Of a stretch of DNA of 64,000 nucleotides, positions 6,302 through 21,264 are shown piece after piece. The notes under the pieces were generated by a model. The model was given only the letters and a program-made list of their open reading frames with translations. It did not search any database and was not told the origin of the DNA. This stretch comes from Acholeplasmataceae bacterium. Lineage in GTDB: Bacteria; Bacillota_I; Bacilli_A; Acholeplasmatales; Acholeplasmataceae. The translations under genes were made by a program, and so were the position numbers. Position 1 is the first letter of the stretch. Every line of letters starts with the position of its first letter. The DNA lies in assembly GCA_007692425.1 (NCBI GenBank), contig RECG01000008.1, positions 1-64,000 on the forward strand. Reading direction: 5' to 3'.

Positions 6302-7285
6302 TCAAGACTTGAAATAAGTGCTGATCTGGTCCATGTCAAGATCAAGACTGAGGGCAATCATCAGTTTGAGTCGTGCCTTTTGACTATTGAGGTTTTCAGC
6401 AAAAATGACACCAAGCTGTTTAAGTTGGTCGCCACCACCATCATAACCATAGGTATCAAGCACTCTGCCCATCGGACAGCGCGAAGTCAGGACAACCGGA
6501 ATACCAGTCGTGATCGCACGCTTGATACCAGCGACCATCGGTGGTGGGACATTGCCTCTTCCGAGCCCTTCGATGACAAGACCCTTGATGTTTTGCTCGA
6601 TGAGTAAGTTTAGTATAAGTGAACTTGAGCCGGCATATGCTTTGACAATTTCAACCTCATCAATCAACTTGACCGGTTTGTCAGAAACATGATGAGATGG
6701 TTTCCGACGATAGTATAAAACGTTATCTTGGTCGACAATGCCGATTGGTCCGAACTCAAGAGACTTGAATGTATCCAAAGCCAGTGTGTGAGATTTGGTC
6801 ACTTCCGAAGCGGCATTGATTTCGTCATTCATGACGAGAAGCACGCCTCGTCCTCTTGATTCGTCACAGGCTGAAACAAGAATCGAAGACACCAGGTTGC
6901 TCAATCCGTCATAACCAAGCTCTGAGAAATTACGCATTGAACCGGTGAAGATGACCGGTTTTTCAGTGTTCAAATAAAGATCCAAAAAATAAGCGGTCTC
7001 TTCAAGTGTGTCGGTTCCATGCGTCACGACGATGCCATCGATGTCAGATTGTGAAAGTTTTTCATCTGAAAGCTTCGCCAGATCAAACATATTAGCAGGC
7101 GTGAAGGAAGGCGATGGAACCATGGAGAACTCATGTGTCAGGATCTCGATCGCTGAGAGCTCGTTCTTGATGCTTTCCATAAGCTCAAGATGATTGTCGT
7201 AGATGATGGCCTTTTTGGTGCGGGCATGCTTTTCCATGGAGATGGTGCCACCTGTGAAGATAACAAGGATTGTCTTTTTCTGCAT
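6302..7285 (-). CDS. L-asparaginase family protein
   Basis: TGGTISM, VVTHGTDTLEETAYFLDL, PVIFTGSMR motifs. Confidence 0.9.
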   Translation of the reverse strand: MQKKTILVIFTGGTISMEKHARTKKAIIYDNHLELMESIKNELSAIEILTHEFSMVPSPSFTPANMFDLAKLSDEKLSQSDIDGIVVTHGTDTLEETAYFLDLYLNTEKPVIFTGSMRNFSELGYDGLSNLVSSILVSACDESRGRGVLLVMNDEINAASEVTKSHTLALDTFKSLEFGPIGIVDQDNVLYYRRKPSHHVSDKPVKLIDEVEIVKAYAGSSSLILNLLIEQNIKGLVIEGLGRGNVPPPMVAGIKRAITTGIPVVLTSRCPMGRVLDTYGYDGGGDQLKQLGVIFAENLNSQKARLKLMIALSLDLDMDQISTYFKS

Positions 7286-7318
7286 AATATCACCATTTAT
7301 ATTGTAACATAAGTCCAT

Positions 7319-8451
7319 ATCTGATACGTGATGACAAATGTAAGTTTAGTATTTGTCGTTTTTTGATAGTTTATAGGGCTACCCGCACGAAGAAGACGAA
7401 ATTTGGCCCTATCCACATTATCAACTTACCCACACAAACACAAGTGACCGCACAGTAAAGGTAACATCTAATGGTTAACATAATATACATTATACGAACA
7501 TATAGGAAATAAAAAGAAGCGTTTATACGCAATTAATGGGTGTAATGTTTTAGCGTTTACGACGTTTATTGGCGCTTTCAACCGCTTCTTTTGGCCTTAA
7601 ATATATCTATAATTTGGACATGATGCCGTTTATAAAAACCGAGAGTACGCTATGGGCGTGTGAATGCTGCTGAGACGACCATTGGCCTTTTTGGGGCGTT
7701 CGATGGCTCATATGCCGTTTACGCCAAAATGATAGCAAGTGTTGTTTGACTATTTCATCTGCTTGTTCTTCTACTCCCAACCTGGGTGTGTGATATTTTT
7801 TCAAGTTCATCACCAGTCGCAGAAACTGAAAGCATCAAGATCATTTGTGATGACGCGCTCTCGTCGACTGACAAACTGATTTTTCATAGAGACATCTTCT
7901 ACTTTGATTGGGTAGATGTGTCTGACAAGTTTTTTCTTGAAGCAAATGAACAACTGTTCCCAAAATGATAATCATGAAAACATTTCACCAGTTTTCATTA
8001 TACACAGTGAAACCTAATGCGTTGTTTTCATCTTATTTACAAACTAACCGTATTCTTTAAACATGTATTGCGGATCAGTCCGGCTGGTTTGCAAAACCCT
8101 GTTGGTCAATGATGTGACATTGTTGTTGATTCTGATGTGCGTGTGATCATTTGATTCGACTGGTGCTTCTAACGGTTCTTCCTATATGACAGGTCCATGC
8201 GTGAACAACCGATGTTTGGATTCTTGGATGTCAAAGGTGATCTCATTGGTTTGCAGCGAATCCAGATTTTGGCAACCTTGATTTTCTTTTTTCTTTTTTC
8301 GATCTCATTATTCAATTAAACAAGTTTATATATAAATATAATAAAGAAATAAATATCGTCTATAAGTTTACAAATAGTAAACATACAGAAAAATATTGAA
8401 TCAAGGGCTACCTTATATTTATTGTACGCGCGCACGCGCGCGTGAGTAAGA
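7319..8451. other. Gene-poor AT-rich region with no convincing intact gene
   Basis: Only short ORFs (<=68 aa) with no recognised family; composition differs from flanks. Confidence 0.6.
8424..8444. repeat. Alternating purine-pyrimidine tract / GC-rich inverted repeat
   Basis: GTACGCGCGCACGCGCGCGTG: 21 nt perfect alternation; ACGCGCGC-AC-GCGCGCGT inverted repeat just past the stop at 8452. Confidence 0.85.
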
Positions 8452-9252
8452 TCAACAATGCTTTTGCACAAAGCCAATCAGCAATGTCGAGAGCTCTTTC
8501 GGCTTTTCAAAAATGGTGACATGTCCGCATTCCGGGATAATGACATATTCGCTTTGTGCAATTTCGTCATGGATGATTTTAGAGAATCTTCTTGGTTTCA
8601 ATTTGTCGTCTTCACCACAAACCACCAGTACCGGTGCGTTGATTTCCTTCAAACGGTCGGTCATCTGAATGTCTTGGTTGAATGTCTGATACAAAGCGAT
8701 CTGGCCTTCGAAATAACTTGGGTCGACATGAGCGGTCGCTTTGGCCCGTTCTTCCAAAAAGGCTTTGTTTTCTGCTAAAAACCGCGATCCGTATATGATG
8801 TCGGCCATCCCCCAGAAAAACTGATATCCATCTTTCTTTTCACAAAGTTCGATCCAGCGGTTGATCTCCGTCTCCATGGCATCATCGATCTCGCTGACCG
8901 AATCAATGACGACCAGGCTTTTCACCACTTCAGGATACCTGAACGCGATGTTCATGCCGACTTCACCGCCATAGCTCGTCCCGATGAAATGGGCTTTTTT
9001 GACACCGAGTTTCTCAAGCACCATGATGGTTTCCGCGGCATGTTCGGCGAACGTATAAGGGCCTTTCGGTTTATCCGAACGCAACTGTCCTTTGAAGTCA
9101 TGCAAAATGACATGAAAGCCCATCTCGACGAAAGGTTTCATCAAGATGTACCAGCTGTTCACCGATGCCATGACACCATTCAAAAAGACAATCTTATCAC
9201 CTTTCGGATTGCCATGTTCCTCGACATGTATGTCCATCTGATTAATACGCAT
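8452..9252 (-). CDS. Alpha/beta hydrolase
   Basis: Nucleophile elbow GTSYGGE, C-terminal ECGHVTIFEKP His motif; RBS GAGGGCAG. Confidence 0.8.
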   Translation of the reverse strand: MRINQMDIHVEEHGNPKGDKIVFLNGVMASVNSWYILMKPFVEMGFHVILHDFKGQLRSDKPKGPYTFAEHAAETIMVLEKLGVKKAHFIGTSYGGEVGMNIAFRYPEVVKSLVVIDSVSEIDDAMETEINRWIELCEKKDGYQFFWGMADIIYGSRFLAENKAFLEERAKATAHVDPSYFEGQIALYQTFNQDIQMTDRLKEINAPVLVVCGEDDKLKPRRFSKIIHDEIAQSEYVIIPECGHVTIFEKPKELSTLLIGFVQKHC

Positions 9253-9290
9253 ATCTGCCCTCCTCATCTAGCAAAAAGGGGACAAGTCCC

Positions 9291-10178
9291 CTAAGATTGC
9301 ATGAATGTTACAATATCCTTTGTCAATGCATCCGGCACATCGACAAAAGGTGAATGACCACATTGGTCATAAACGACCAAAGTCGAGTTGTCCTTCAATG
9401 CTTTGACATTATCCATGACCATCGCTTCCGGCACGACGATGTCCTGTTTGCCCCAGGTATGGAGCACGGGCATCTTGAGCGTACTGATGGTGTTGGTCCC
9501 GGCCGTGTAACCATTGTGCTCACCGGACATGTTCAAGGTCGCCAACGCCCAGTTGGCATCAATCAGGTTGCGCTGTTTGAGCGATTCCTCAATCCAGATG
9601 CGCGTCTCTTCCATGGTCGGTTTGTTGACGGTGTAGATCGAGACATCAAATATGTAACTCATGACCGGAAAATTCTTATCACGTTGCGCGTCCAAAAGCG
9701 GTTTGACCTGGATTGGATCATTACCGATTTCCTCAGGCGAGGCATAGACATCACCTTCACGGATCTGGCCGTTCTCATCTTTCTTGTAAAGCGGGTAGCC
9801 ACGGTACGTGGTTGAACTGATCAAGATCAATTTCTCGACCATCTCGGGATGTCTGGCCGCCATTTCAAGGGCGACACCGCCGCCGAGCGACCAACCCAAC
9901 ACGGTGACCTTCTCAATTTGTTTGACCTTGAGAAACATCACCAGGTCGCTGACAAAGTCAGCCATCGACGTGATCCGTTCGTGATAGCTCGAGTCACCGA
10001 AACCACGCAGATCCGGTGCCAGTATGCGGATGTCCTTCGGCATGCGTGATAACAAAGGTGTGAAGTACAGTCCGGATGAAAAATTGCCGTGGATCAATAA
10101 CAGGGTCTGGTCACCCTGGCCTTTTTCAAGGTAATGGATGACTTCATTGTTTGGTAAGACGATTTGCCGTTTTTCCAT
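9291..10178 (-). CDS. Alpha/beta hydrolase with GWSLGG lipase box (PhaZ-like candidate)
   Basis: LLLIHGNFSSG, APDLRGFGDSS, LGWSLGGGVALEMA, QCGHSPFVDVP. Confidence 0.78.
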   Translation of the reverse strand: MEKRQIVLPNNEVIHYLEKGQGDQTLLLIHGNFSSGLYFTPLLSRMPKDIRILAPDLRGFGDSSYHERITSMADFVSDLVMFLKVKQIEKVTVLGWSLGGGVALEMAARHPEMVEKLILISSTTYRGYPLYKKDENGQIREGDVYASPEEIGNDPIQVKPLLDAQRDKNFPVMSYIFDVSIYTVNKPTMEETRIWIEESLKQRNLIDANWALATLNMSGEHNGYTAGTNTISTLKMPVLHTWGKQDIVVPEAMVMDNVKALKDNSTLVVYDQCGHSPFVDVPDALTKDIVTFMQS

Positions 10179-10192
10179 GCTAAGACCTCCCA

Positions 10193-11014
10193 TCAAATGT
10201 CATATTGCGCTTGAAGCGCATTGATGAAACCCAGGACCAATGTGACAAACAATATTGGTCGTTCATACATCGAGGCATGCCCGGTACCCGGTAACAGTAC
10301 CATTTCAGCATGTTTCAGTGCATCCTTCAACGCTTTCTGGTTGTTGATCGGTGTCAGGTAGTCTTCATCGGCTGCGACGATCAATGTCGGTGCGTTGATC
10401 TTGCCAAGTCCGTCACGGACATCAAATGCTTCAGCGCTGTTGGTCAGACGTTCCATGGCATCGAGAAAGACTGGATTGGAAAAAATCGGCAGCAGATAAG
10501 CTTCGCGCTTTTTCATCCAGTCCAGTTTTGCCTCGTAGAAACTTGGTGAGTAAATGACCGGAATGGTTGCCTTGTAATAGGTGGCACCGTCCCGGGTTTT
10601 ACCGATTGCGTTCCATTGGTGGCCGATTTCCGCCAACCAGGGCGAGGTATAGGCGGTCGTGTTGAACAAAACCAACCGCTCCACCCTGTCGGGATGTGTG
10701 ACGGCAAACAGCAAGGCGACTTCGCCGCCGTAGGAAATGCCCACCAAATTGATGGTCTTGATGTCCAGTTCATCCAATAAGGCTTTGATCACCTCGACCT
10801 GGATGTCCTGGCCATAGGTTTGGCCCTCGAGCCGGTCGCTCTGGCCCTGGTCGAGAAAATCAAGCCTGATCACCATGTTATCGGCCGAAAGCGCAGCCAG
10901 GAAAGGATCCCAGCTTTTGGTCGACATCATGATGCCGTTCAAGATCAGCAAAGGCCGGCCTTTGCCGTGGACATCATAAAACACGTTGTGGTTATTGACC
11001 TTTAGTGTCGGCAT
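10193..11014 (-). CDS. Alpha/beta hydrolase
   Basis: LLILNGIMMS, GISYGGEVALLFA, GTGHASMYERP. Confidence 0.8.
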   Translation of the reverse strand: MPTLKVNNHNVFYDVHGKGRPLLILNGIMMSTKSWDPFLAALSADNMVIRLDFLDQGQSDRLEGQTYGQDIQVEVIKALLDELDIKTINLVGISYGGEVALLFAVTHPDRVERLVLFNTTAYTSPWLAEIGHQWNAIGKTRDGATYYKATIPVIYSPSFYEAKLDWMKKREAYLLPIFSNPVFLDAMERLTNSAEAFDVRDGLGKINAPTLIVAADEDYLTPINNQKALKDALKHAEMVLLPGTGHASMYERPILFVTLVLGFINALQAQYDI

Positions 11015-11018
11015 CGTA

Positions 11019-12329
11019 TCAACCTCTGATATAACCGAACTTGACCGCTTCGCGGCGAAGTTCATCTCTGAATTTCGGATGGGCGATGCTGATCAACATC
11101 GCGACGCGTTCCGCCACGGAGGCGCCGGATAATTTGACACAGCCATATTCGGTCACGACGTGGTCGACATCGCTCCTCGACAAGGTCACGGCCGCACCCG
11201 GTTTGAGGGTCGGGACAATCTTCGAAATTTCTTCCCTTTCACCGGTTTCACGATTTTTGACCATGGCGGTCGAATAAAGCGTGATGAAACTCATGCCGCC
11301 CTTGCTATTCTGGGCGCCCACGGCCGTATCAGTCTGGCCGCCGGTACCGGAAAACTGACGCGTGCCGATTGATTCACTGGCACATTGTCCGGTCAGGTCA
11401 ACCTCCAGGGTCGTGTTGATCGACACCTGGTTATCATTCAAGCCAATGATGTGAGGGTCATTGACGTAGTGTCCGTTTAAGACGAGCACACTCGGGTTCT
11501 GGTCGATGAAATCATAGAGTTCCTGTGTACCCAGCGCGAAACAGCAGACATGTTTACCGTTATACACCTGTTTGCGCTTGCCGTTGGCCGCGCCGGCCTT
11601 GACCAGTTTCATCAAGCCCGTGGTGAACATTTCGGTATGAATGCCTAGATCCTTTTTCTCCATCAGTGCATGCGCGACCGCATTGGGAATCCCACCGATG
11701 CCGAACTGCAAGGTCGAACCGTCCTTGATCTTGGCTGCGACATGGCCACCGATTTTCAAGTCTTTCTCATTGGGTTCGATGTCCGGCAGGACGGGTGCAG
11801 GATAATCGACTTCGATGATGTAATCAATCTCGCTTTCATGTAATTCAAGATCACCATAAGTGCGTGGAAAATGGGGATTGATCTCCAAAATCACGGTTTT
11901 GGCGGCCGCCACAGCCTCTTTCTCATAGACATTGGAAAGGGACAGCGAGACAAACCCGTGCTTGTCAGGCGGTGTCGCGGTACCGACAAATAAATCGGTT
12001 TTCGTGTGTGCCAGACGTTGCCGTCCGGCCAGATGTAAATGATTGGGGATGTAAGAGATGTTGCCGTGCTCGTAGGCCTTGCGGACGGAAGGTCCGAAAA
12101 ACCAGCAATCCACGTCAAACTGGGCCGCATGATCAGGATTGATGAAAAACTCACAATCCTCCATCGGCAGGCAGTTGGTCACCTTGACATGCTTGCCATC
12201 GGCAGCGGCATGATGAAGCAACCTTAAAAATTCCTTGGGCTCTGCCGCAGCCATGCCGGAGACGATGACGTCGCCGTCTTTGACCAGACCGACAGCTTCC
12301 AAAGCGGTGATCTTACGTGGTTTATTCAT
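11019..12329 (-). CDS. Acetyl-CoA hydrolase/4-hydroxybutyrate CoA-transferase family protein
   Basis: LQFGIGGIPNAVAHAL, LGIHTEMFTTGL, QFSGTGGQTD, FITLYSTA motifs. Confidence 0.87.
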   Translation of the reverse strand: MNKPRKITALEAVGLVKDGDVIVSGMAAAEPKEFLRLLHHAAADGKHVKVTNCLPMEDCEFFINPDHAAQFDVDCWFFGPSVRKAYEHGNISYIPNHLHLAGRQRLAHTKTDLFVGTATPPDKHGFVSLSLSNVYEKEAVAAAKTVILEINPHFPRTYGDLELHESEIDYIIEVDYPAPVLPDIEPNEKDLKIGGHVAAKIKDGSTLQFGIGGIPNAVAHALMEKKDLGIHTEMFTTGLMKLVKAGAANGKRKQVYNGKHVCCFALGTQELYDFIDQNPSVLVLNGHYVNDPHIIGLNDNQVSINTTLEVDLTGQCASESIGTRQFSGTGGQTDTAVGAQNSKGGMSFITLYSTAMVKNRETGEREEISKIVPTLKPGAAVTLSRSDVDHVVTEYGCVKLSGASVAERVAMLISIAHPKFRDELRREAVKFGYIRG

Positions 12330-12354
12330 GTTATGCCTCGTTTCGTGTGATGCG

Positions 12355-12382
12355 TTGAAGGGAGAGTCGTCTCTCCCTTCAA
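12355..12382 (-). other. Intra-operon RNA hairpin (12-bp stem, TCGT/ACGA loop) without U-tract
   Basis: TTGAAGGGAGAG-TCGT-CTCTCCCTTCAA between substrate-binding protein stop and CoA-transferase start. Confidence 0.75.
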
Positions 12383-12409
12383 CCGCTCACAAGTGTGAAA
12401 AACTAACGA

Positions 12410-13723
12410 TTATTTGTCTTGAATCTCTTCGATGCCTTCGATGTCTCTGACTTTTGTCCAGTTCCAACCGGTTCTATCCGTTGGATCTTCTGGATCAAAG
12501 ACTGGTGAAAGTTTCAACAAGGCCATAGAGGCGATGCCCCAGCGCTTGCCACCACCAAAATCGACAAAGCCGCCCATCGGCACGCTGATTGGTTCAGATT
12601 CCATGGCTTCGATGTAGGAAGCCCAGGTCAACTCGTCTGTACCAACACGGTTCAATCCTTCGACAAAGATGCTGGCGGCGATATAACCGGCCATCGCAAA
12701 CGCATTGGCGGTGTAGTTCGGCTTGCCATCAACGGTGCCGTCATATCCGGCATCAGTCATGATCGCGACAAAATCCCAGTATGACTGTGCGAAACCAAAG
12801 AGACCTTCCGGATCAACGATGTCGATCCAGGCGTTGGCATACATGTCAAACTGATAGTTGGTTTCCGCATCAATCGAGGTCGCATCGGCGTTGACATAAG
12901 AAGTGAAGACAGGCACGTGCAGACCCTGGGTGTTCATGAGGCCTGCGGCAACCTTGAACGGTGCCTGGTTAGAGGCGATGATGACGGCTTGGACGCCATC
13001 GCTTTGCAATTCAAGAATCGCGGTGGTCAGGCTGGCGGTATCCTCGGCTGAAAATGGCTTGTAGATAAAGTCATCTTCACGTCCGGCGAACGCCGCTTCC
13101 AGTTCAATGCCTTCCATGATGGAAATACCGTCATCGGAAGTGGTGTGCAAGACACCGATCTTGGCATCAGCCGGCAGGGGTTCATCACCATCGACGCCAT
13201 AGAGTGACTCATACAACGCACGGGCGGTCATGACACGGCCATCGGTCAGATAAATCGGCTGAACGGCCATGACAGGGTTGCCAGGTGATTCTTGGAAATA
13301 CAGGGCGTTGATGCCGGTTGCGGCATAAACCATCGGGATGCCGACATCCTGGATGATGTCAAGCGTCCCACCAACTGTCGGTGTGCCAAAATGACCCACC
13401 AGGGCGAAGACCTGGTCTTCTTCAATCAGTCGCTTGGTGTAGGTGATACCGGTCGCTTGGTCAAACCCATCATCATAGGTGACGAAACTCAGGGTGCGGC
13501 CGGCAATGCCACCTTCGGTGTTGATGGCTTCAAAGACAGCCGTGATACCTGCATTGAACGGTAGTCCGACAAATGCAAACGCACCGGATGTCGCAGCTGT
13601 GTTACCGACAATGATTTCGGTGTCGGTGACACCTTGGACAATGATCTTGTCCTCGCCTTCGACGCAGGCGGCCACGGTGACCAGCCCGACAATGGCGAGC
13701 ATAAGTACTAAAATCTTTTTCAT
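12410..13723 (-). CDS. Branched-chain amino acid-type ABC transporter substrate-binding lipoprotein (LivJ/K family)
   Basis: MKKILVLMLAIVGLVTVAAC lipobox; GNTAATSGAFAFVG, ALVGHFGTPT, VYAATG. Confidence 0.85.
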   Translation of the reverse strand: MKKILVLMLAIVGLVTVAACVEGEDKIIVQGVTDTEIIVGNTAATSGAFAFVGLPFNAGITAVFEAINTEGGIAGRTLSFVTYDDGFDQATGITYTKRLIEEDQVFALVGHFGTPTVGGTLDIIQDVGIPMVYAATGINALYFQESPGNPVMAVQPIYLTDGRVMTARALYESLYGVDGDEPLPADAKIGVLHTTSDDGISIMEGIELEAAFAGREDDFIYKPFSAEDTASLTTAILELQSDGVQAVIIASNQAPFKVAAGLMNTQGLHVPVFTSYVNADATSIDAETNYQFDMYANAWIDIVDPEGLFGFAQSYWDFVAIMTDAGYDGTVDGKPNYTANAFAMAGYIAASIFVEGLNRVGTDELTWASYIEAMESEPISVPMGGFVDFGGGKRWGIASMALLKLSPVFDPEDPTDRTGWNWTKVRDIEGIEEIQDK

Positions 13724-13792
13724 ATATTCTCCTTTTTCTTGCCTGTGGCAATCTATTTTTTCCTGCCCACAGGGGCAGAGTGCTACCTTCAT

Positions 13793-14560
13793 TTACTTAG
13801 AACCCAGATAGGCGTTGACGAGAGCTTCATCCTTGAGCAGCACCTCACCGGTTCCCTTGGTCTTGATCTTGCCGAGTTCCATCACATAGACATAATCCGC
13901 GATCTTCAATGTCTGATAGGCATTTTGTTCGACAATCAGGATGGTTCTTCCACTGGCCTTGATCTGGCTGATGATCTTGAAGATGTCTCTGACAATCAGC
14001 GGTGCCAGGCCGAGTGACGGCTCATCAAGCAATAACAACTTCGGACGGCCCATCAAGGCCCGGCCGATGGCAAGCATCTGCTGTTCACCACCCGAAAGGG
14101 TCGAGGCCTGCTGGCGCCGTCTTTCCTTGAGAATCGGGAAATAGCCGAAGACTTCCGCCATGGTCTCGTTGACCAGTTTGGAAACGCTGATCTTGACAGT
14201 TTGTTCGACACCGTTTACGGTGCGGGTCCGTTTTTCCGGCTTGAGTGCATAAGCGCCCACCCTGAGGTTTTCTTCAACCGTCAAGCCGCTCAGGATGAGG
14301 CGGCCTTCCGGTGATTGCAGGATACCCTGGGCTGTAATCTTGTACGACTCCTTGTTGGCGATATCCTTGCCTTCATAAAGAATCTGGCCGCTCTTGGCCT
14401 TGACGACCCCTGAGATGGTCCGAATCGTCGTCGTCTTGCCGGCGCCGTTGGCACCCAGCACGGCGACAATCGTTCCCTCCTCGACTTTCATGTTGATACC
14501 CTTGATGGCACGGATGATCCCGTAATCGACCACCAGGTCTTTCAATTCCAAAAGGGCCAT
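13793..14560 (-). CDS. ABC transporter ATP-binding protein, LivF type
   Basis: GANGAGKTTTIRTISG, LSGGEQQMLAIGRALM, LLLLDEPSLGLAP. Confidence 0.9.
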   Translation of the reverse strand: MALLELKDLVVDYGIIRAIKGINMKVEEGTIVAVLGANGAGKTTTIRTISGVVKAKSGQILYEGKDIANKESYKITAQGILQSPEGRLILSGLTVEENLRVGAYALKPEKRTRTVNGVEQTVKISVSKLVNETMAEVFGYFPILKERRRQQASTLSGGEQQMLAIGRALMGRPKLLLLDEPSLGLAPLIVRDIFKIISQIKASGRTILIVEQNAYQTLKIADYVYVMELGKIKTKGTGEVLLKDEALVNAYLGSK

Positions 14561-14561
14561 C

Positions 14562-16007
14562 TCATTCACCACCCAGGTAAGCTTCTTGAACAAGCTTGTT
14601 TGACTTGATTTGACGCGGTGTGCCAATCGCGAGTTTCTTGCCGAAGTTGATGGCACAAATGGTATCACAGACTTCCATCACAAGTTGCATGTCATGCTCG
14701 ACCAAGAAGATCGTGCAGGCATATTCCTCCCTGATTTTCCTCAGTGTTTCTGCCAATGCCCTGGTCTCAAGATCATTCAAGCCCGCGGCTGGTTCATCCA
14801 AGATGATCAGATTCGGCTGGGTCATTAATGTCCGCGCCAGTTCAATGCGTTTCAACACGCCATACGGCAGTCCGATGGGATGATGATCCTTGTACATGAT
14901 CAGATCGAGATCGGTCAAAATCTTGATGGCCTTGGCATGGATGACCGCTTCTTCGCGCTTCAATTTGTTCAAATGCAAAAGTTGTGTGAAGAATCCGGCG
15001 TTATACAGGCTGTGGGCCCCGACCAGCATGTTGTCCAAAATAGACAATTCCCAGATCAGTTCGACATTCTGGAATGTTCTGACGATCCCTTGTTTGATCA
15101 CGTCATGAACCTTGAAAGCATTCAATGAAACCACTTCGCGATTGACGTTACGATAATACATATTTCCGGCATTGGGCCTGTGAAACTGCGTGATGCAGTT
15201 GAAGACCGTGGTCTTGCCAGCCCCGTTGGGACCGATCAAACCGAAGATTTCACCTTCCCGGACGTTGAATGTCAAGTCATCGACTGCTTTGAGACCACCG
15301 AACTTCATGGTCAGGTTCTCAATGCCCAGAACGTCCTTCTCATCCAATTTGTCCAGTCGTTGTTCTGTATCCGGATCCTCTGCCAGGACCTTGAGCAGTT
15401 GCGCCCGCTTGGTTTCCAGCAATTCATTGAGCGGTTCAATTTTTTTCAACCGTTTTTCACTGATGCGTTTGAACCGGTCCTCATCTTGTGTTTCCAAACG
15501 TGTCTGGAGTTGCTGGTATTGGGCTGTCAATTCGGCTTTTTTTGCCTCATAGGCGGCACGATTGGCTTCAATGACCGCCTGCTCGAGGTGTCGTTGATGT
15601 TTATCAAGCAGTGTCTGCTTCTTGTTGTCAAGTGCTTCTTCAAGTTGCTTCAACCTGGCATCGCGCTTGACATCAGCCTTCTTTTCGTCATCAGGGTTGC
15701 GCTTGACGGCACGGGCATGTGATTGCCTGACCGCCCGTTTTTTCCAGGCGTAGGCGTCTTCAAGCCGCTTGATCTGATCAGCCGTCATGACTTCTTGGTA
15801 AGCGTCATCATCGAGTGTGGCAAGTTCAAGCGGCAACAAGAGACGCTGATGTTTCTGTTTCAAGCGTTTTAGTTTCTTCTCGGTCCGTTGATCAAGGCGC
15901 TCTTTGATGATGGGCAGATAAGACTCATTGAACTGAACCCTGTATTCAAGCCGGTTGATATGGCGGACGAGCAACGTTTTCTTAAGACGGATCCACATCT
16001 TTGCCAT
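14562..16007 (-). CDS. ABC transporter ATP-binding protein, LivG type, with ~228-aa N-terminal coiled-coil extension
   Basis: C-terminal NBD: GLIGPNGAGKTTVFNCITQ, LIILDEPAAGLN; N-terminal heptad-like K/E/Q-rich region in the same uninterrupted frame. Confidence 0.87.
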   Translation of the reverse strand: MAKMWIRLKKTLLVRHINRLEYRVQFNESYLPIIKERLDQRTEKKLKRLKQKHQRLLLPLELATLDDDAYQEVMTADQIKRLEDAYAWKKRAVRQSHARAVKRNPDDEKKADVKRDARLKQLEEALDNKKQTLLDKHQRHLEQAVIEANRAAYEAKKAELTAQYQQLQTRLETQDEDRFKRISEKRLKKIEPLNELLETKRAQLLKVLAEDPDTEQRLDKLDEKDVLGIENLTMKFGGLKAVDDLTFNVREGEIFGLIGPNGAGKTTVFNCITQFHRPNAGNMYYRNVNREVVSLNAFKVHDVIKQGIVRTFQNVELIWELSILDNMLVGAHSLYNAGFFTQLLHLNKLKREEAVIHAKAIKILTDLDLIMYKDHHPIGLPYGVLKRIELARTLMTQPNLIILDEPAAGLNDLETRALAETLRKIREEYACTIFLVEHDMQLVMEVCDTICAINFGKKLAIGTPRQIKSNKLVQEAYLGGE

Positions 16008-17085
16008 AACGGTACTCCTTCCAGCTTGATTTCAGTTTGCGTGCGCCCTTCATGACAAGTTGCTTGATATCGGTGAACAGGCGGACGATGCCGCCGGGAT
16101 AAAACATGACCACCAAGATGATCAACATGCCGTTGATGATGAAATAAGCGCTCGGATAGTTGCCAAAGAAAGGGAGGCGTTTCAAGACCAGATCATTCAT
16201 GGCGAAGACGATGAACGTCCCTGCCATGACCCCATACATCGATTTCATGCCACCGATGACGACGGCCGCCAAAATGTTCAATGTCAAGGCCAGCCCCCAC
16301 GTACTGGGGTGGGAGACCAACTTGTTCATGAAGTACAGCGATCCTCCCAGTCCGGCGACGATGGTCGCCAGGATGAATGCCAGCAAACGGAACTTCATGA
16401 GGCTGATGCCCATCGCCTGGGCGGCGGATGTGCTGTTTTTCATGGCCAGCATCGCACGTCCGGTCGGACTCTTGATCAGGTTGTAGAGGAAGATCATGAC
16501 CAGGACCAGCATGACGATGATGATGTAATAGGAGAAAGTGAAGCGGTCGCTTTGCTTGAACTCCCAAAACAAGAAACGCATCCTGAACAAGGAATAACCG
16601 GCATTGCCACGCGTCACCGACAAGAACTTGCGGAATATCTCCACCAGGATTTCCGCGATACCCAGCGTGATGATTGCCAGGTACATGCCTTCAATCCTGA
16701 GCGAGATGAAACCGACGACCACACCGACAATGATGGAAATGGCAAGACCGATCAAGACACCTGTGAAGGCGGGCCAGCCCAGATTACCGGCCACATGGGC
16801 CAGCACATAGGCGTTCAGGCCGACAAAGCCGGCCGTACCGAGTGATGCCAGGCCTGCGTAGCCCAAAAGAAAGGTGAATCCGAGCGCGACGATGTAGTAG
16901 ATGATGACAGGGGTCAAAAGATTGATGGTCGAGGCGCGGATGACACCCGCGATGCCCAAAAATTGCAGCATCAACAGCAGGATGCCTGTCAACAAAATGC
17001 CAAAATAGGGATGACGGACGATGGATTGAGACGACAATTTGATGTCTGTGAAGATGGTGCGGGTGACTTTGTTTTCAAGTTTCAT
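15982..17085 (-). CDS. Branched-chain-type ABC transporter permease, LivM
   Basis: GYAGLASLGTAGFVGLNAYV, IVAGLGGSLYF, VVIGGMKSMYG. Confidence 0.87.
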   Translation of the reverse strand: MKLENKVTRTIFTDIKLSSQSIVRHPYFGILLTGILLLMLQFLGIAGVIRASTINLLTPVIIYYIVALGFTFLLGYAGLASLGTAGFVGLNAYVLAHVAGNLGWPAFTGVLIGLAISIIVGVVVGFISLRIEGMYLAIITLGIAEILVEIFRKFLSVTRGNAGYSLFRMRFLFWEFKQSDRFTFSYYIIIVMLVLVMIFLYNLIKSPTGRAMLAMKNSTSAAQAMGISLMKFRLLAFILATIVAGLGGSLYFMNKLVSHPSTWGLALTLNILAAVVIGGMKSMYGVMAGTFIVFAMNDLVLKRLPFFGNYPSAYFIINGMLIILVVMFYPGGIVRLFTDIKQLVMKGARKLKSSWKEYRYGKDVDPS

Positions 17086-17088
17086 GGG

Positions 17089-18018
17089 CTACACCTTCTT
17101 CGCAATTTTCTTGCCGAACAAACCGACCGGCTTGATCAGCACAATCAACAAGATGATCATGTAGACCATCGCGATGTTCCACAAGTTGTCGACGCGGTAA
17201 AGGAAGACCGTCAAGAGGGGAATCATGATCGCACCCACGACCGGTCCGAAAAAGGTTGTGAAACCACCCAGGACAGCGGCCAGAAAGCCGTTGACCTGCA
17301 TGAAGACCATCATCCCGACGGTCAACGTCTGCTGCGAGGGTGCGTATAACGCGGCCGCCAAAGAACCGATCCCGGCAGCAATCCCCCAGCTCATCGCCGT
17401 GATGAAACGGGTGTTGACACCCATCATGCTGGCGACTCTTTCATTTGATGCGGTCGCCCGCACACCAAGTCCCCACTTTGTGTATTTAAGCAAGGCGAAG
17501 ATGGTGCCGATGACGACAATCGCAATCACGATGGTCAGAAAATTATGCACCGGTATGGTGAATGTGCCACCACTGACAGGAATGCGCCAGATCTCGGTTG
17601 ACAATGGTCGTGGCGTCGGTGGATGATCGATGACATCGGCATAGATGGTCGGAATCAAACCGGTCAGGACCAGGACGATTCCCATCGTGATCATCTGCTT
17701 GGTCAGCGGATTGGGAAATTTCGACTGCCTGATCAAGACAATGTCAATGAACAGGCCGAGCAGGAAACCAAGGATGATGCCGGTCAATATCGCAATCACG
17801 ACCAGGGCGGGACCCCGCAAAGCCGGAAACTGTGCCGACAAATAGAAAGTATAAAACATCGTGACGAAAAATGCCATCAATGTTCCAATCGAGCCTTGGG
17901 CGAAGTTGGTGGTGTAAGAGGTTCTGAAAATCAGCACGATGCCCAGTGTCACCAATGATAAGACAGCAGCTTGTGACAAGGCGGCAAAGATGATGTTGAG
18001 TAACATGGCGAGTGACAT
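17089..18018 (-). CDS. Branched-chain-type ABC transporter permease, LivH
   Basis: SLVTLGIVLIFRTSYTTNFAQGSIG, NERVASMMGVNT, VLGGFTTFFGP. Confidence 0.87.
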   Translation of the reverse strand: MSLAMLLNIIFAALSQAAVLSLVTLGIVLIFRTSYTTNFAQGSIGTLMAFFVTMFYTFYLSAQFPALRGPALVVIAILTGIILGFLLGLFIDIVLIRQSKFPNPLTKQMITMGIVLVLTGLIPTIYADVIDHPPTPRPLSTEIWRIPVSGGTFTIPVHNFLTIVIAIVVIGTIFALLKYTKWGLGVRATASNERVASMMGVNTRFITAMSWGIAAGIGSLAAALYAPSQQTLTVGMMVFMQVNGFLAAVLGGFTTFFGPVVGAIMIPLLTVFLYRVDNLWNIAMVYMIILLIVLIKPVGLFGKKIAKKV

Positions 18019-18021
18019 AGG

Positions 18022-19047
18022 CTACCCCCAACGGATGACATTGGCCGCCCAGACATAACCGATGCCGGCGGCGATCATGCATACCACGGTGCCGTCCTTG
18101 ACCTTGCCTTTTTGCAAGGCGAGATGTAACGACAGGATCTGGTCGATCTGACCGATGTGTCCGTAGTCTTCAAGGTAAATGGTTTGTGCAGGTGACAGGT
18201 CCAGTTCGGCAAGCATCGCCTCATGGCCTGAGCGTTTGATATGCAAAATATCCAGATAATCGATGTCTTTGCGGGTCATGCCTGACTTGCGCAACGCCTC
18301 ATCGATGCAGGTGAACCAGTTGGGCATCGAGACTTCGTTGAGGCGGTTTTTCATCTTGACGGGGTCCAGCAGTCGAAGCGACCGTCTGGCCTCCTCAAGA
18401 TTGTCTTTCGTCAACGGATTGCATAAGCCGCCGATTTCCACACCCGCTGTTCTTGACAACGAGCCATCGGCGATGATATGTGATCCCAACAACAGGTTTT
18501 TGCCATGATTCTTTTTCAAGATGATGGCACCGCCGCCCGCCCCAAGATTGTACATCATCGACATGTCCTTGTCGGTATAATCCACAAAATCGCCATTGCG
18601 ATAACCACCCACGACCATGATGATGTTGATGTCATCATCAGCCACAAGCATGTCTTTCGCCATTTTCATGGCGGACACGGTGGTACAGCAACGGTTTTGT
18701 ACATCGATACCCCATGCGTTGACCGCACCGATGCGGTCTTGAATGTATAATGCGGAGGTGGTGAGCGGATATTCCTTCCACTCTTCCGTCACGCTCAGGA
18801 TGATGTCGATCGTCTTGGGATCAATGCCGGTGTTTTGCAATGCGTCGAGGGCGGCGCGTGCCCCCATCTCCTGGGTCCCGTCATCCGGGAGCGCCAGAGG
18901 AATCACTTTTTCTTTGATACCGAGCTTGTCGTATATGGCCTGCTCGCTCCAGACGCCGTTGGTCTGTTCACTGATGGCTTTGGCGCTCATCCGTCCTTTG
19001 GGCAGGTAGACGCCCGTGCCGACGATGCCGACGTTTGTTTCTTGCAT
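18022..19047 (-). CDS. Beta-ketoacyl-ACP synthase III-like (thiolase-fold) protein
   Basis: VGIVGTGVYLPKGR, QNRCCTTVSAMKMA (catalytic Cys), LHIKRSGHEAML, DYGHIGQID. Confidence 0.8.
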   Translation of the reverse strand: MQETNVGIVGTGVYLPKGRMSAKAISEQTNGVWSEQAIYDKLGIKEKVIPLALPDDGTQEMGARAALDALQNTGIDPKTIDIILSVTEEWKEYPLTTSALYIQDRIGAVNAWGIDVQNRCCTTVSAMKMAKDMLVADDDINIIMVVGGYRNGDFVDYTDKDMSMMYNLGAGGGAIILKKNHGKNLLLGSHIIADGSLSRTAGVEIGGLCNPLTKDNLEEARRSLRLLDPVKMKNRLNEVSMPNWFTCIDEALRKSGMTRKDIDYLDILHIKRSGHEAMLAELDLSPAQTIYLEDYGHIGQIDQILSLHLALQKGKVKDGTVVCMIAAGIGYVWAANVIRWG

Positions 19048-19084
19048 CAGGGCAACCCCTTCTTTCATGTATGTTTCAGTGGTG

Positions 19085-19804
19085 TCAAAGTCTCATGCCA
19101 CCATTGACGTCAAGCGTATGACCGGTGACATAGGATGACTCTTCGGATGCGAGATACAAGGTCGCGTCCGCAACCTCTTTAGGTTGACCAAGTCTGCCAA
19201 GCATGGTCATTTTGGCAAAACCGTCCAAAAGGTCCTGTGGCACGGTTTTCAAGATATCGGTCATGATGTAACCAGGTGCGATGGCGTTGACGCGTACATT
19301 CGCACCCTTGCGGGCAAACTCCTTGGCCCATGTCTTGGTCAGGCCGATCACACCGGCCTTGGTGGCCGCATAATTGGCCTGTCCGATATTGCCGAAAAGT
19401 CCGACGACGGACGAAATGTTGATGATTGATCCATAACCGTTCGTCTCCATCAGGGGACCGAACAGGCGGGTCATGTTGAAGACGCCTTTCAAATTGACAT
19501 CGATGACCAGACTCCACTGCTCATCGGTCATCTTGCGGGTCATGGCATCACGGGTGATGCCGGCATTATTGACCAAGATGTCAACCTTGCCGAAACGTTC
19601 CACGACTTCGGTGAAGAAATCCTGAACAGCTGCCACGTCAGTGACATTCAGTACATAACCATGCACGTTATCGGCCTGGTAGGATAATTCAGTCATATCG
19701 GCGGCGATGACGATCGCGCCTTCTTTGGCAAAGGTTTCACAAATAGCCTGTCCCAGGCCTTTCGCACCACCGGTGACGACGGCGACTTTGTCTTTTAATC
19801 TCAT
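19085..19804 (-). CDS. SDR-family 3-oxoacyl-ACP/acetoacetyl-CoA reductase (FabG/PhaB-like)
   Basis: VTGGAKGLGQAI, VNNAGITRDAMTRKMTDEQW, YAATKAGVIGLTK, VNAIAPGYI. Confidence 0.88.
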   Translation of the reverse strand: MRLKDKVAVVTGGAKGLGQAICETFAKEGAIVIAADMTELSYQADNVHGYVLNVTDVAAVQDFFTEVVERFGKVDILVNNAGITRDAMTRKMTDEQWSLVIDVNLKGVFNMTRLFGPLMETNGYGSIINISSVVGLFGNIGQANYAATKAGVIGLTKTWAKEFARKGANVRVNAIAPGYIMTDILKTVPQDLLDGFAKMTMLGRLGQPKEVADATLYLASEESSYVTGHTLDVNGGMRL

Positions 19805-19814
19805 ATCGGTCTCC

Positions 19815-21023
19815 TTAAACTTTTTTCAAAATGACAGCAGTGCCCATGCCGCCGCCGATGCAAAGGCTTGCCAGGCCGAGTCTGGCCTTCGGTTGCTTGT
19901 GCATCTCATGCAGCAGGGTCACCAGGATGCGGTTGCCGCTGGCGCCGACCGGATGGCCGAGCGCGATTGCGCCACCGTTGACATTGGTCTTGGCCATGAT
20001 GTCATCCATCGACATGCCATGTTCTTCGGCCAGTTCGGTGACGACACCGAGCGACTGGACAGCAAACGCTTCATTGAGTTCGAGTAAATCCATGTCGGCC
20101 AGTTTCAGTCCGGCGTGACGCAATGCCTGCCTGATGGCGGGCGTGGGTCCGAGTCCCATGATGCCGGGATCGACGCCACCTTGTCCGATGCCGACGACTT
20201 CGGCAAGCGGGGTCAGCTTGTATTGTTTGACAGCGTCCTCACCGGCCAAAAGCATGAAGCTGGCGCCATCGTTGATACCGGATGAGTTCCCGGCGGTCAC
20301 CGAACCGTCCTTCTTGAAAGCAGGTCTCAATTGGGACAGTTTTTCAAGGTTGGTCTGCCGGTTGATGTATTCATCTTTGTCAAAGACGATATCGCCTTTG
20401 CGTGAAGCGATGGTGATGGGGATGATTTCATCCTTGAAACGACCCGCATCATCGGCCTTGGCCGCCTTTTGCTGTGAAGTGAACGCGAACGCGTCCTGGT
20501 CTTCACGGCTGATCGTGTACTTGTCAGCGATATGTTCGGCTGTGACGCCCATGTGATAACCTTCAAAAGCGTCAGTCAAGGCATCATGTGTCATGTGGTC
20601 AAGCAGGGTCTGGTCACCAAACCTGACGCCTGAACGCACTTTGGCAGGCACCAGATACGGGGCCATACTCATGGATTCGATGCCACCGGCCACCACCAGG
20701 TCATGCAGACCCAGGGCGATGTTGGCAAATCCGTTCATCACCGTTTTCATGCCACTACCGCAGACCATGTTGACACCATAAGCCGGCACGCTGATCGGCA
20801 CCCCTGCTTGGATGGCAATCTGCCGGGCGAGGCCGTGCTTGAGTCCGGCTGGCAGGATGTTGCCGACCGACACTTCATCAAGCTTGGCCGGATCGATGGC
20901 GGTCTCGGCCAAAAGAGCCTTCAGCACCTGTGCACCGAATTCAGCCGGATGCAAGGTGGATAATGTGCCAAGAAATGATCCGATCGGACTTCTTTTGGCA
21001 GCAATCACATAAACTTTTTTCAT
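19815..21023 (-). CDS. Acetyl-CoA acetyltransferase (thiolase)
   Basis: KRSPIGSFLG, NMVCGSGMKTVM, NVNGGAIALGHPVGASGNRI, CIGGGMGTA. Confidence 0.92.
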   Translation of the reverse strand: MKKVYVIAAKRSPIGSFLGTLSTLHPAEFGAQVLKALLAETAIDPAKLDEVSVGNILPAGLKHGLARQIAIQAGVPISVPAYGVNMVCGSGMKTVMNGFANIALGLHDLVVAGGIESMSMAPYLVPAKVRSGVRFGDQTLLDHMTHDALTDAFEGYHMGVTAEHIADKYTISREDQDAFAFTSQQKAAKADDAGRFKDEIIPITIASRKGDIVFDKDEYINRQTNLEKLSQLRPAFKKDGSVTAGNSSGINDGASFMLLAGEDAVKQYKLTPLAEVVGIGQGGVDPGIMGLGPTPAIRQALRHAGLKLADMDLLELNEAFAVQSLGVVTELAEEHGMSMDDIMAKTNVNGGAIALGHPVGASGNRILVTLLHEMHKQPKARLGLASLCIGGGMGTAVILKKV

Positions 21024-21152: not shown

Positions 21153-21168
21153 GTGAATAATTATTCAC
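21153..21168. promoter_or_regulatory. Candidate TetR-family operator: perfect 16-bp palindrome GTGAATAATTATTCAC
   Basis: Perfect dyad just downstream of the thiolase-operon -10; divergent TetR gene adjacent. Confidence 0.75.
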
Positions 21169-21179
21169 ATTACGAAATC

Positions 21180-21208
21180 ATTTTATCACAGGCATCACCC
21201 TTTGTCAA
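21180..21208 (-). promoter_or_regulatory. Sigma-A-like promoter of the thiolase-to-hydrolase operon
   Basis: Minus strand TTGACA-17 nt-TAAAAT (21203-21208 and 21180-21185). Confidence 0.75.
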
Positions 21209-21247: not shown

Positions 21248-21264
21248 GACACCTTTTAGGTGTC
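21248..21264. repeat. Inverted repeat GACACCT-TTT-AGGTGTC in TetR/thiolase intergenic region
   Basis: 7-bp perfect arms, 3-nt spacer. Confidence 0.6.

Follow-up and report, generated by a model that had tools for sequence, protein, structure and literature searches.

A conserved gene cassette for the probable uptake and fermentation of polyhydroxyalkanoate fragments in an Acholeplasmataceae bacterium

Known systems and the locus

The closest described counterparts of the gene cassette analyzed here are the intracellular poly(3-hydroxybutyrate) (PHB) depolymerase PhaZ of Bacillus thuringiensis, the fermentation of 3-hydroxybutyrate (3HB) by Ilyobacter species, the Liv/HAAT importers for aromatic or fatty acids and the ketoacyl synthase FabH. 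The cassette occupies positions 8452-21023 of the minus strand in a 64,000-nucleotide stretch of DNA from an Acholeplasmataceae bacterium (GenBank assembly GCA_007692425.1, contig RECG01000008.1), which is referred to as the window and belongs to contig C11 of a 1.45 Mb genome that is 97.8% complete. A tryptophan at position x1 of the lipase box marks the superfamily of lipase-box intracellular depolymerases of native short-chain-length polyhydroxyalkanoates, nPHA(scl) (PMC2666664). Ilyobacter polytropus and Ilyobacter delafieldii convert 3HB to acetate, or to acetate and butyrate, via coenzyme A (CoA) esters; the former uses the monomer only and the latter degrades PHB (PMC3035301, PMC10096456).

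The individual parts of the cassette belong to known families, and their combination is widespread in Firmicutes-type bacteria. Its PhaZ resembles that of B. thuringiensis in family membership above the cut-off, the Trp at x1 of the lipase box, the Ser-Asp-His triad and the lack of a signal peptide, but is encoded in a putative uptake and fermentation operon of hosts without a polyhydroxyalkanoate (PHA) synthase, which thus have no granule of their own to mobilize. For Ilyobacter, in contrast, no operon of an ABC importer and an intracellular depolymerase is described (PMC3035301, PMC10096456). The importer has the five-gene architecture of the aromatic- and fatty-acid importers, and the fold of its substrate-binding protein (SBP) is close to 4n03 and to hydroxybenzoate binders, although in sequence this SBP is only distantly related to any solved one. 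The KASIII-like enzyme shares the fold and the catalytic Cys and His with FabH but differs in the replacement of Asn by His and of the HQAN-type motif by HxKRSxH. In the literature searched, we found no description of a cassette that unites an intracellular depolymerase with an oligomer importer, a fermentation module and KASIII.

We consider it fairly probable that the cassette is an operon under TetR control that serves to scavenge and ferment fragments of short-chain polyhydroxyalkanoates, chiefly (R)-3HB oligomers. Its twelve genes are tightly packed, most neighbours overlapping or being separated by no more than about 25 bp, and the widest spacers (about 70-80 bp) lying on both sides of the SBP gene. 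Start codons were refined by direct reading of the sequence for thiolase (ATG at 21023), SBP (ATG at 13723) and LivF (14560). In the order of transcription, followed by the upstream elements, the features are:

19815-21023, minus: thiolase (acetyl-CoA C-acyltransferase); TIGR01930, 464 bits, cut-off 240
19085-19804, minus: short-chain dehydrogenase/reductase (SDR) of the FabG / acetoacetyl-CoA-reductase type; NF009466 (FabG subfamily), 240.6 bits, cut-off 222
18022-19068, minus: KASIII-like enzyme; NF005308/PRK06840, 472.8 bits, cut-off 315; Cys127-His276-His304
17089-18018, minus: LivH-type permease; PF02653
15982-17085, minus: LivM-type permease; PF02653
14562-16007, minus: LivG-type ATPase, N-terminally extended; NF008449 from residue 224, PF12399
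13793-14560, minus: LivF-type ATPase; NF008626, 239 bits
12410-13723, minus: SBP lipoprotein with lipobox VAAC; PF13458, own-genome and fold searches
11019-12329, minus: CoA-transferase of the 4-hydroxybutyrate / butyryl-CoA:acetate type; 3eh7/3gk7, HTEM glutamate E233
10193-11017, minus: ABH3, cytoplasmic alpha/beta hydrolase of the conserved core; 4q3l (MGS-M2)
9291-10178, minus: ABH2, here called PhaZ, intracellular short-chain-length (scl) PHA depolymerase family; NF050089, 8ynv
8452-9267, minus: ABH1, accessory alpha/beta hydrolase; PF00561
21336-21950, plus: divergent TetR-family regulator; PF00440
21153-21168: perfect palindrome GTGAATAATTATTCAC, presumed TetR operator; conserved as a TATGAATNNNNATTCATA-type palindrome in relatives
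21180-21208, minus: predicted sigma-70 promoter TTGACA-17-TAAAAT with TG extension; 11 of 12 consensus positions

An earlier note on this DNA, made from the sequence alone, had described eleven consecutive minus-strand genes with mostly short spacers, among them a complete Liv-type ABC importer and three tandem hydrolases. The spacers, the gene families and the strand agree with our analysis, and all five importer components were identified by family models; the gene count, however, is twelve, and the third hydrolase, ABH1, turned out to be a rare accessory, which the note had not seen. It had also overlooked the divergent TetR gene, the promoter and operator region (21153-21208) and the unusual subfamily of the KASIII-like enzyme. 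Downstream of the cassette lies an asparaginase-family gene (6302-7318, minus), separated from it by about 1.1 kb without a long open reading frame (ORF) (7319-8451).

Conservation of the cassette

Carriers of KASIII were called above the curated cut-off in 26 genomes of a phylum sample of 295, and these 26 genomes were compared at the locus level together with another 80 loci taken from titled genome records. Some genomes count twice among the 70 complete cassettes from other genomes, the two collections overlapping. The exact order thiolase-SDR-KASIII-LivHMGF-SBP-CoA-transferase-ABH3-PhaZ is found in 43 of these 70 and near variants of it in the rest; TetR and thiolase are each present in 64, PhaZ in 62 and ABH1 in 4. 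Of 104 loci, 97 have the SDR gene immediately before KASIII and 93 have LivH immediately after it. Cassette genes, mostly with the operator, recur in Acholeplasmatales, Clostridia, Erysipelotrichaceae, Christensenella and one metagenome-assembled genome (MAG) of Sphaerochaeta. The named sequences nearest to the window's KASIII come from Peloplasma aerotolerans, Acholeplasma granularum, Paracholeplasma vituli and MAGs of Acholeplasmataceae, which marks the host as an Acholeplasmatales-type bacterium. Such an arrangement of genes greatly exceeds what chance would produce, and the enzymes and the transporter, for which the earlier note had proposed a comparison of synteny in relatives, are syntenic across families and classes. 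Where the Liv block has been relocated (L035, L037, L039, L080), KASIII remains with the enzymes, as it does in two loci, discussed below, where Liv genes are missing nearby. This assigns KASIII to the enzymatic side of the pathway.

Within the phylum sample, 26 genomes carry KASIII and 25 a PhaZ-family depolymerase, and 24 genomes share both (Fisher p ~7e-32, with kinship ignored); in the remaining two KASIII genomes PhaZ scores just under the cut-off (286 and 285 bits). The two genes are at most 12 kb apart in 23 of the 26 genomes, the exceptions being on fragmented contigs. The single genome that is positive for PhaZ and negative for KASIII, G111, has TetR, thiolase, CoA-transferase, ABH3 and PhaZ, and in its locus (L144, 5806-6300) a 60-residue SDR fragment is followed by a 98-residue C-terminal fragment of the SBP, which suggests that the middle of the cassette (SDR-KASIII-Liv-SBP) was either lost by deletion or is misassembled. 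The cassette genes travel as one unit.

The conservation extends to the presumed control region. The promoter listed above, which has an extended -10 element and is directed into the cassette, is the best site in a promoter scan of the region, and the palindrome GTGAATAATTATTCAC follows about a dozen bases past its -10. Most relatives have, in the matching intergenic region, a palindrome of the TATGAATNNNNATTCATA type with no more than two mismatches, compared with an average of about four mismatches in shuffled sequences. The GTGAATAATTATTCAC site has the position and form expected of a TetR operator and is presumed to be one; we infer repression by TetR and transcription of the genes as an operon. 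A hairpin, GACACCTAAAAGGTGTC, at 21248-21264 was considered as the operator as well, but it is not kept in relatives and the GTGAATAATTATTCAC palindrome was preferred.

Depolymerase, importer and the proposed route

The second hydrolase, ABH2, scores above the curated NF050089 cut-off for intracellular scl-PHA depolymerases (337.1 versus 300 bits), and its best solved relatives are the poly(3-hydroxybutyrate) depolymerase structures 8ynv and 8ynw (E=2.5e-69). It had been singled out before for a lipase box resembling that of B. thuringiensis PhaZ, a likeness that the family model and the nearest structure bear out. The GWSLGG box comprises residues 101-106 and is GWSxGG in orthologues; W102, S103, G105 and G106 are conserved together with D252 and H281, so that both the lipase box and the Ser-Asp-His triad are preserved. 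All 16 cassette homologues in alignment A4, including those of Clostridia and Sphaerochaeta, match NF050089. When six divergent homologues were scored singly, four were above the cut-off, L118 was slightly under it (281) and L119, whose gene is divergently oriented, was clearly under it (207). A search of plasmids for PhaZ found none. ABH3 belongs to the same family as the solved MGS-M2 (4q3l, 405 bits), followed by esterases, and has a conserved Ser-Asp-His triad; ABH1 is a distant ABH3 paralogue (27% identity).

The N-terminus of PhaZ, MEKRQIVLPNNEV..., was read directly and has no signal peptide, and the same is true of ABH3 and ABH1. Furthermore, searches of the 26 KASIII genomes for PHA synthase gave no match with PF07167 (PhaC_N, 0/26) and none above cut-off with TIGR01836 (class III, 0/26), which rules out endogenous PHB storage as an explanation. 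Since the cytoplasmic depolymerase is conserved beside an importer in genomes without PHA synthase, and signal peptides are absent, it probably acts on imported esters.

The Liv/HAAT importer is complete, with an SBP, two permeases and two ATPases. Its SBP is the only Peripla_BP_6 protein found in a search of the window genome, and three components miss the cut-offs for branched-chain amino acid transporters (SBP 39.6/477, LivF 239/441, LivG 256/362 bits). In the predicted structure of the SBP (pLDDT 90) the nearest fold is 4n03, titled a fatty-acid SBP, followed by binders of 3-/4-hydroxybenzoate, p-coumarate and leucine. This fold would permit a hydroxyacid as the presumed ligand. Ahead of its ATPase domain, LivG has an extension of about 220 highly charged residues that are probably coiled-coil (15342-16007, minus); long LivG ORFs of about 480-525 amino acids recur in the Acholeplasmataceae loci L036, L039, L041 and L042, and short ones are present in L049 and L057.

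A PF00108 search of the genome found no true thiolase besides that of the cassette, the second match being a FabH-type gene on contig C27. SDRs of the FabG/acetoacetyl-CoA-reductase type act on (R)-3-hydroxyacyl thioesters, and the units of PHB have the (R) configuration; the cassette SDR, which is under the TIGR01830 cut-off (266 bits), is expected from its sequence to be an (R)-3-hydroxyacyl-CoA dehydrogenase. The model of the classical 3-hydroxyacyl-CoA dehydrogenase gave only short fragment matches in the window genome. The CoA-transferase groups with 4-hydroxybutyrate CoA-transferases (3eh7, 3gk7, E ~1e-89) and has kept the active-site Glu.

About ten distinct relatives, of the Acholeplasma type or clostridial, carry a MaoC-Bcd-EtfB-EtfA block as a co-directional insertion between TetR and thiolase (L036, L040, L042, L045, L063, L076, L085, L122, L127, L137); in other relatives the block is divergent. 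A PhaJ-type MaoC hydratase acts on (R)-3-hydroxyacyl-CoA, and its action followed by that of an acyl-CoA dehydrogenase gives butyryl-CoA. Thus, relatives with the block seem capable of dismutating 3HB to acetate plus butyrate in the manner of Ilyobacter (PMC3035301), and the insertion probably turns their cassette into a butyrate-forming operon. Six loci have an acetate kinase gene at a flank of the cassette; in L037 (G055) and L035 (G100) it directly adjoins the cassette, in G055 beside PhaZ. Butyrate formation is not supported for the window genome, where no acyl-CoA dehydrogenase was found. As this genome does have acetate kinase and [FeFe]-hydrogenase domains, the window bacterium is likely to produce acetate and H2.

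From these assignments we infer the substrate and the direction of each reaction. The SBP lipoprotein and LivHMGF would import 3HB oligomers, which the cytoplasmic esterases PhaZ and ABH3, together with ABH1 where present, would cut to 3HB. The CoA-transferase would convert 3HB to (R)-3HB-CoA, spending acetyl-CoA and releasing acetate, and the FabG-type SDR would oxidize the product to acetoacetyl-CoA. Thiolase would then yield two acetyl-CoA, of which one could recharge the CoA-transferase and the other provide ATP via acetate kinase, while electrons would leave as H2; in several relatives, MaoC-Bcd-EtfAB would channel some of the (R)-3HB-CoA into butyrate. About one ATP is gained per 3HB converted to acetate, and ABC import of the monomer costs at least as much, which makes oligomers the sensible cargo in combination with cytoplasmic esterases.

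The KASIII-like enzyme belongs to a family annotated only as 3-oxoacyl-ACP synthase. Its AlphaFold2 model is FabH-like (pTM 0.84, pLDDT 82; best PDB match 4dfe), with Cys127 and His276 aligned to the catalytic Cys and His of FabH and His304 at the position of the catalytic Asn. This Cys-His-His set, which takes the place of the Cys-His-Asn triad of FabH, is invariant in the subfamily, including haloarchaeal homologues, and so is the HxKRSxH motif. The haloarchaeal genes, on megaplasmids, are:

L032, 12001-13083: KASIII homologue
L033, 11950-13017: KASIII homologue
L034, 11998-13008: KASIII homologue

Their products (about 33% identity) keep all special residues, and the genes directly follow an SBP-LivFGMH operon. 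Nearby genes encode an alpha/beta hydrolase and an AMP-forming ligase, and two of the three loci also have MaoC in the vicinity; similarity of the haloarchaeal SBPs to the window SBP was not detectable. KASIII is thus repeatedly tied to a Liv importer, in two domains of life. Most probably, the enzyme transfers an acyl group onto or off CoA, candidate roles being thiolytic ester-to-CoA acyl transfer, cleavage or formation of 3-oxoacyl thioesters, and acyl transfer between CoA esters. A rather speculative idea, which we regard as a long shot, is that the Cys-His-His enzyme is a new polyester-cleaving acyltransferase that would pass a 3HB unit from the imported oligomer via an enzyme thioester to CoA. 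If true, depolymerization by KASIII would be thiolytic instead of hydrolytic, and activation energy would be saved.

Alternative cargoes and biological meaning

The earlier note's interpretation, a hydroxyalkanoate oligomer or another carboxylic acid as the importer's substrate, gains support from the PhaZ family membership, the synteny, the absence of PHA synthase, the (R)-type enzymes and the butyrate genes of relatives, with the transport substrate presumed now as it was then. Several observations weigh against 3HB oligomers. L053 and L095 retain the enzymes, KASIII among them, but have no Liv genes nearby, and thiolase and PhaZ are missing from 6 and 8 of the 70 complete cassettes, respectively. 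The SDR is under the TIGR01829 cut-off for acetoacetyl-CoA reductases of the PhaB type (252 versus 302 bits) and the CoA-transferase under that of TIGR03948 for butyryl-CoA:acetate CoA-transferases (295 versus 674.8 bits), while the SBP fold neighbours include amino-acid binders beside the fatty- and aromatic-acid binders. The textbook 3HB pathway has no step for KASIII. Finally, the Esterase_PHB model has no match in the window genome, so that the oligomers probably must come from other organisms.

Some of these points would also fit a catabolism of the same kind with a different cargo, namely another hydroxyacid ester or mixed short acyl esters, PhaZ and ABH3 then being general short-chain carboxylesterases. 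The proximity of the core hydrolase ABH3 to MGS-M2 and then to esterases, the eight cassettes without PhaZ, the varied carboxylates bound by the SBP fold neighbours and the many short acids taken by the CoA-transferase family are in line with such a cargo. The PhaZ family membership is, however, specific and above a curated cut-off, and the co-occurrence of PhaZ and KASIII in the phylum is almost one to one; we therefore regard this cargo as rather unlikely. Uptake of free 3HB or another monomeric hydroxy acid, with the hydrolases acting on acyl-CoA or ester by-products, appears improbable to us, since the conserved cytoplasmic ester hydrolases would be left without an evident ester in the absence of PHA synthase and the import of a monomer would consume at least the ATP gained from it. 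The monomer is nevertheless a known substrate of fermenting anaerobes, e.g. Ilyobacter polytropus (PMC3035301).

That the importer is an ordinary one for branched-chain amino acids, placed beside genes of lipid or acyl-CoA metabolism by chance, could be argued from the Liv/HAAT membership of all five transporter proteins and the leucine-binding proteins among the SBP fold neighbours. We consider it very improbable, as the transporter keeps its enzyme partners in different classes and despite several rearrangements, the cassette SBP is the only Peripla_BP_6 protein of the genome, and LivG, LivF and SBP are far under the amino-acid model cut-offs.

If the uptake and fermentation of 3HB oligomers holds true, wall-less Acholeplasma-type bacteria as well as gut and sediment Clostridia would have a dedicated route to living on fragments of a common bioplastic and storage polymer, and an intracellular PHB depolymerase would work in an uptake pathway and not in a storage cycle. 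Named and sequenced relatives, i.e. Peloplasma aerotolerans, Acholeplasma granularum and Paracholeplasma vituli, make this reading testable. It would also define a biochemical setting for a widespread and apparently uncharacterized KASIII subfamily.

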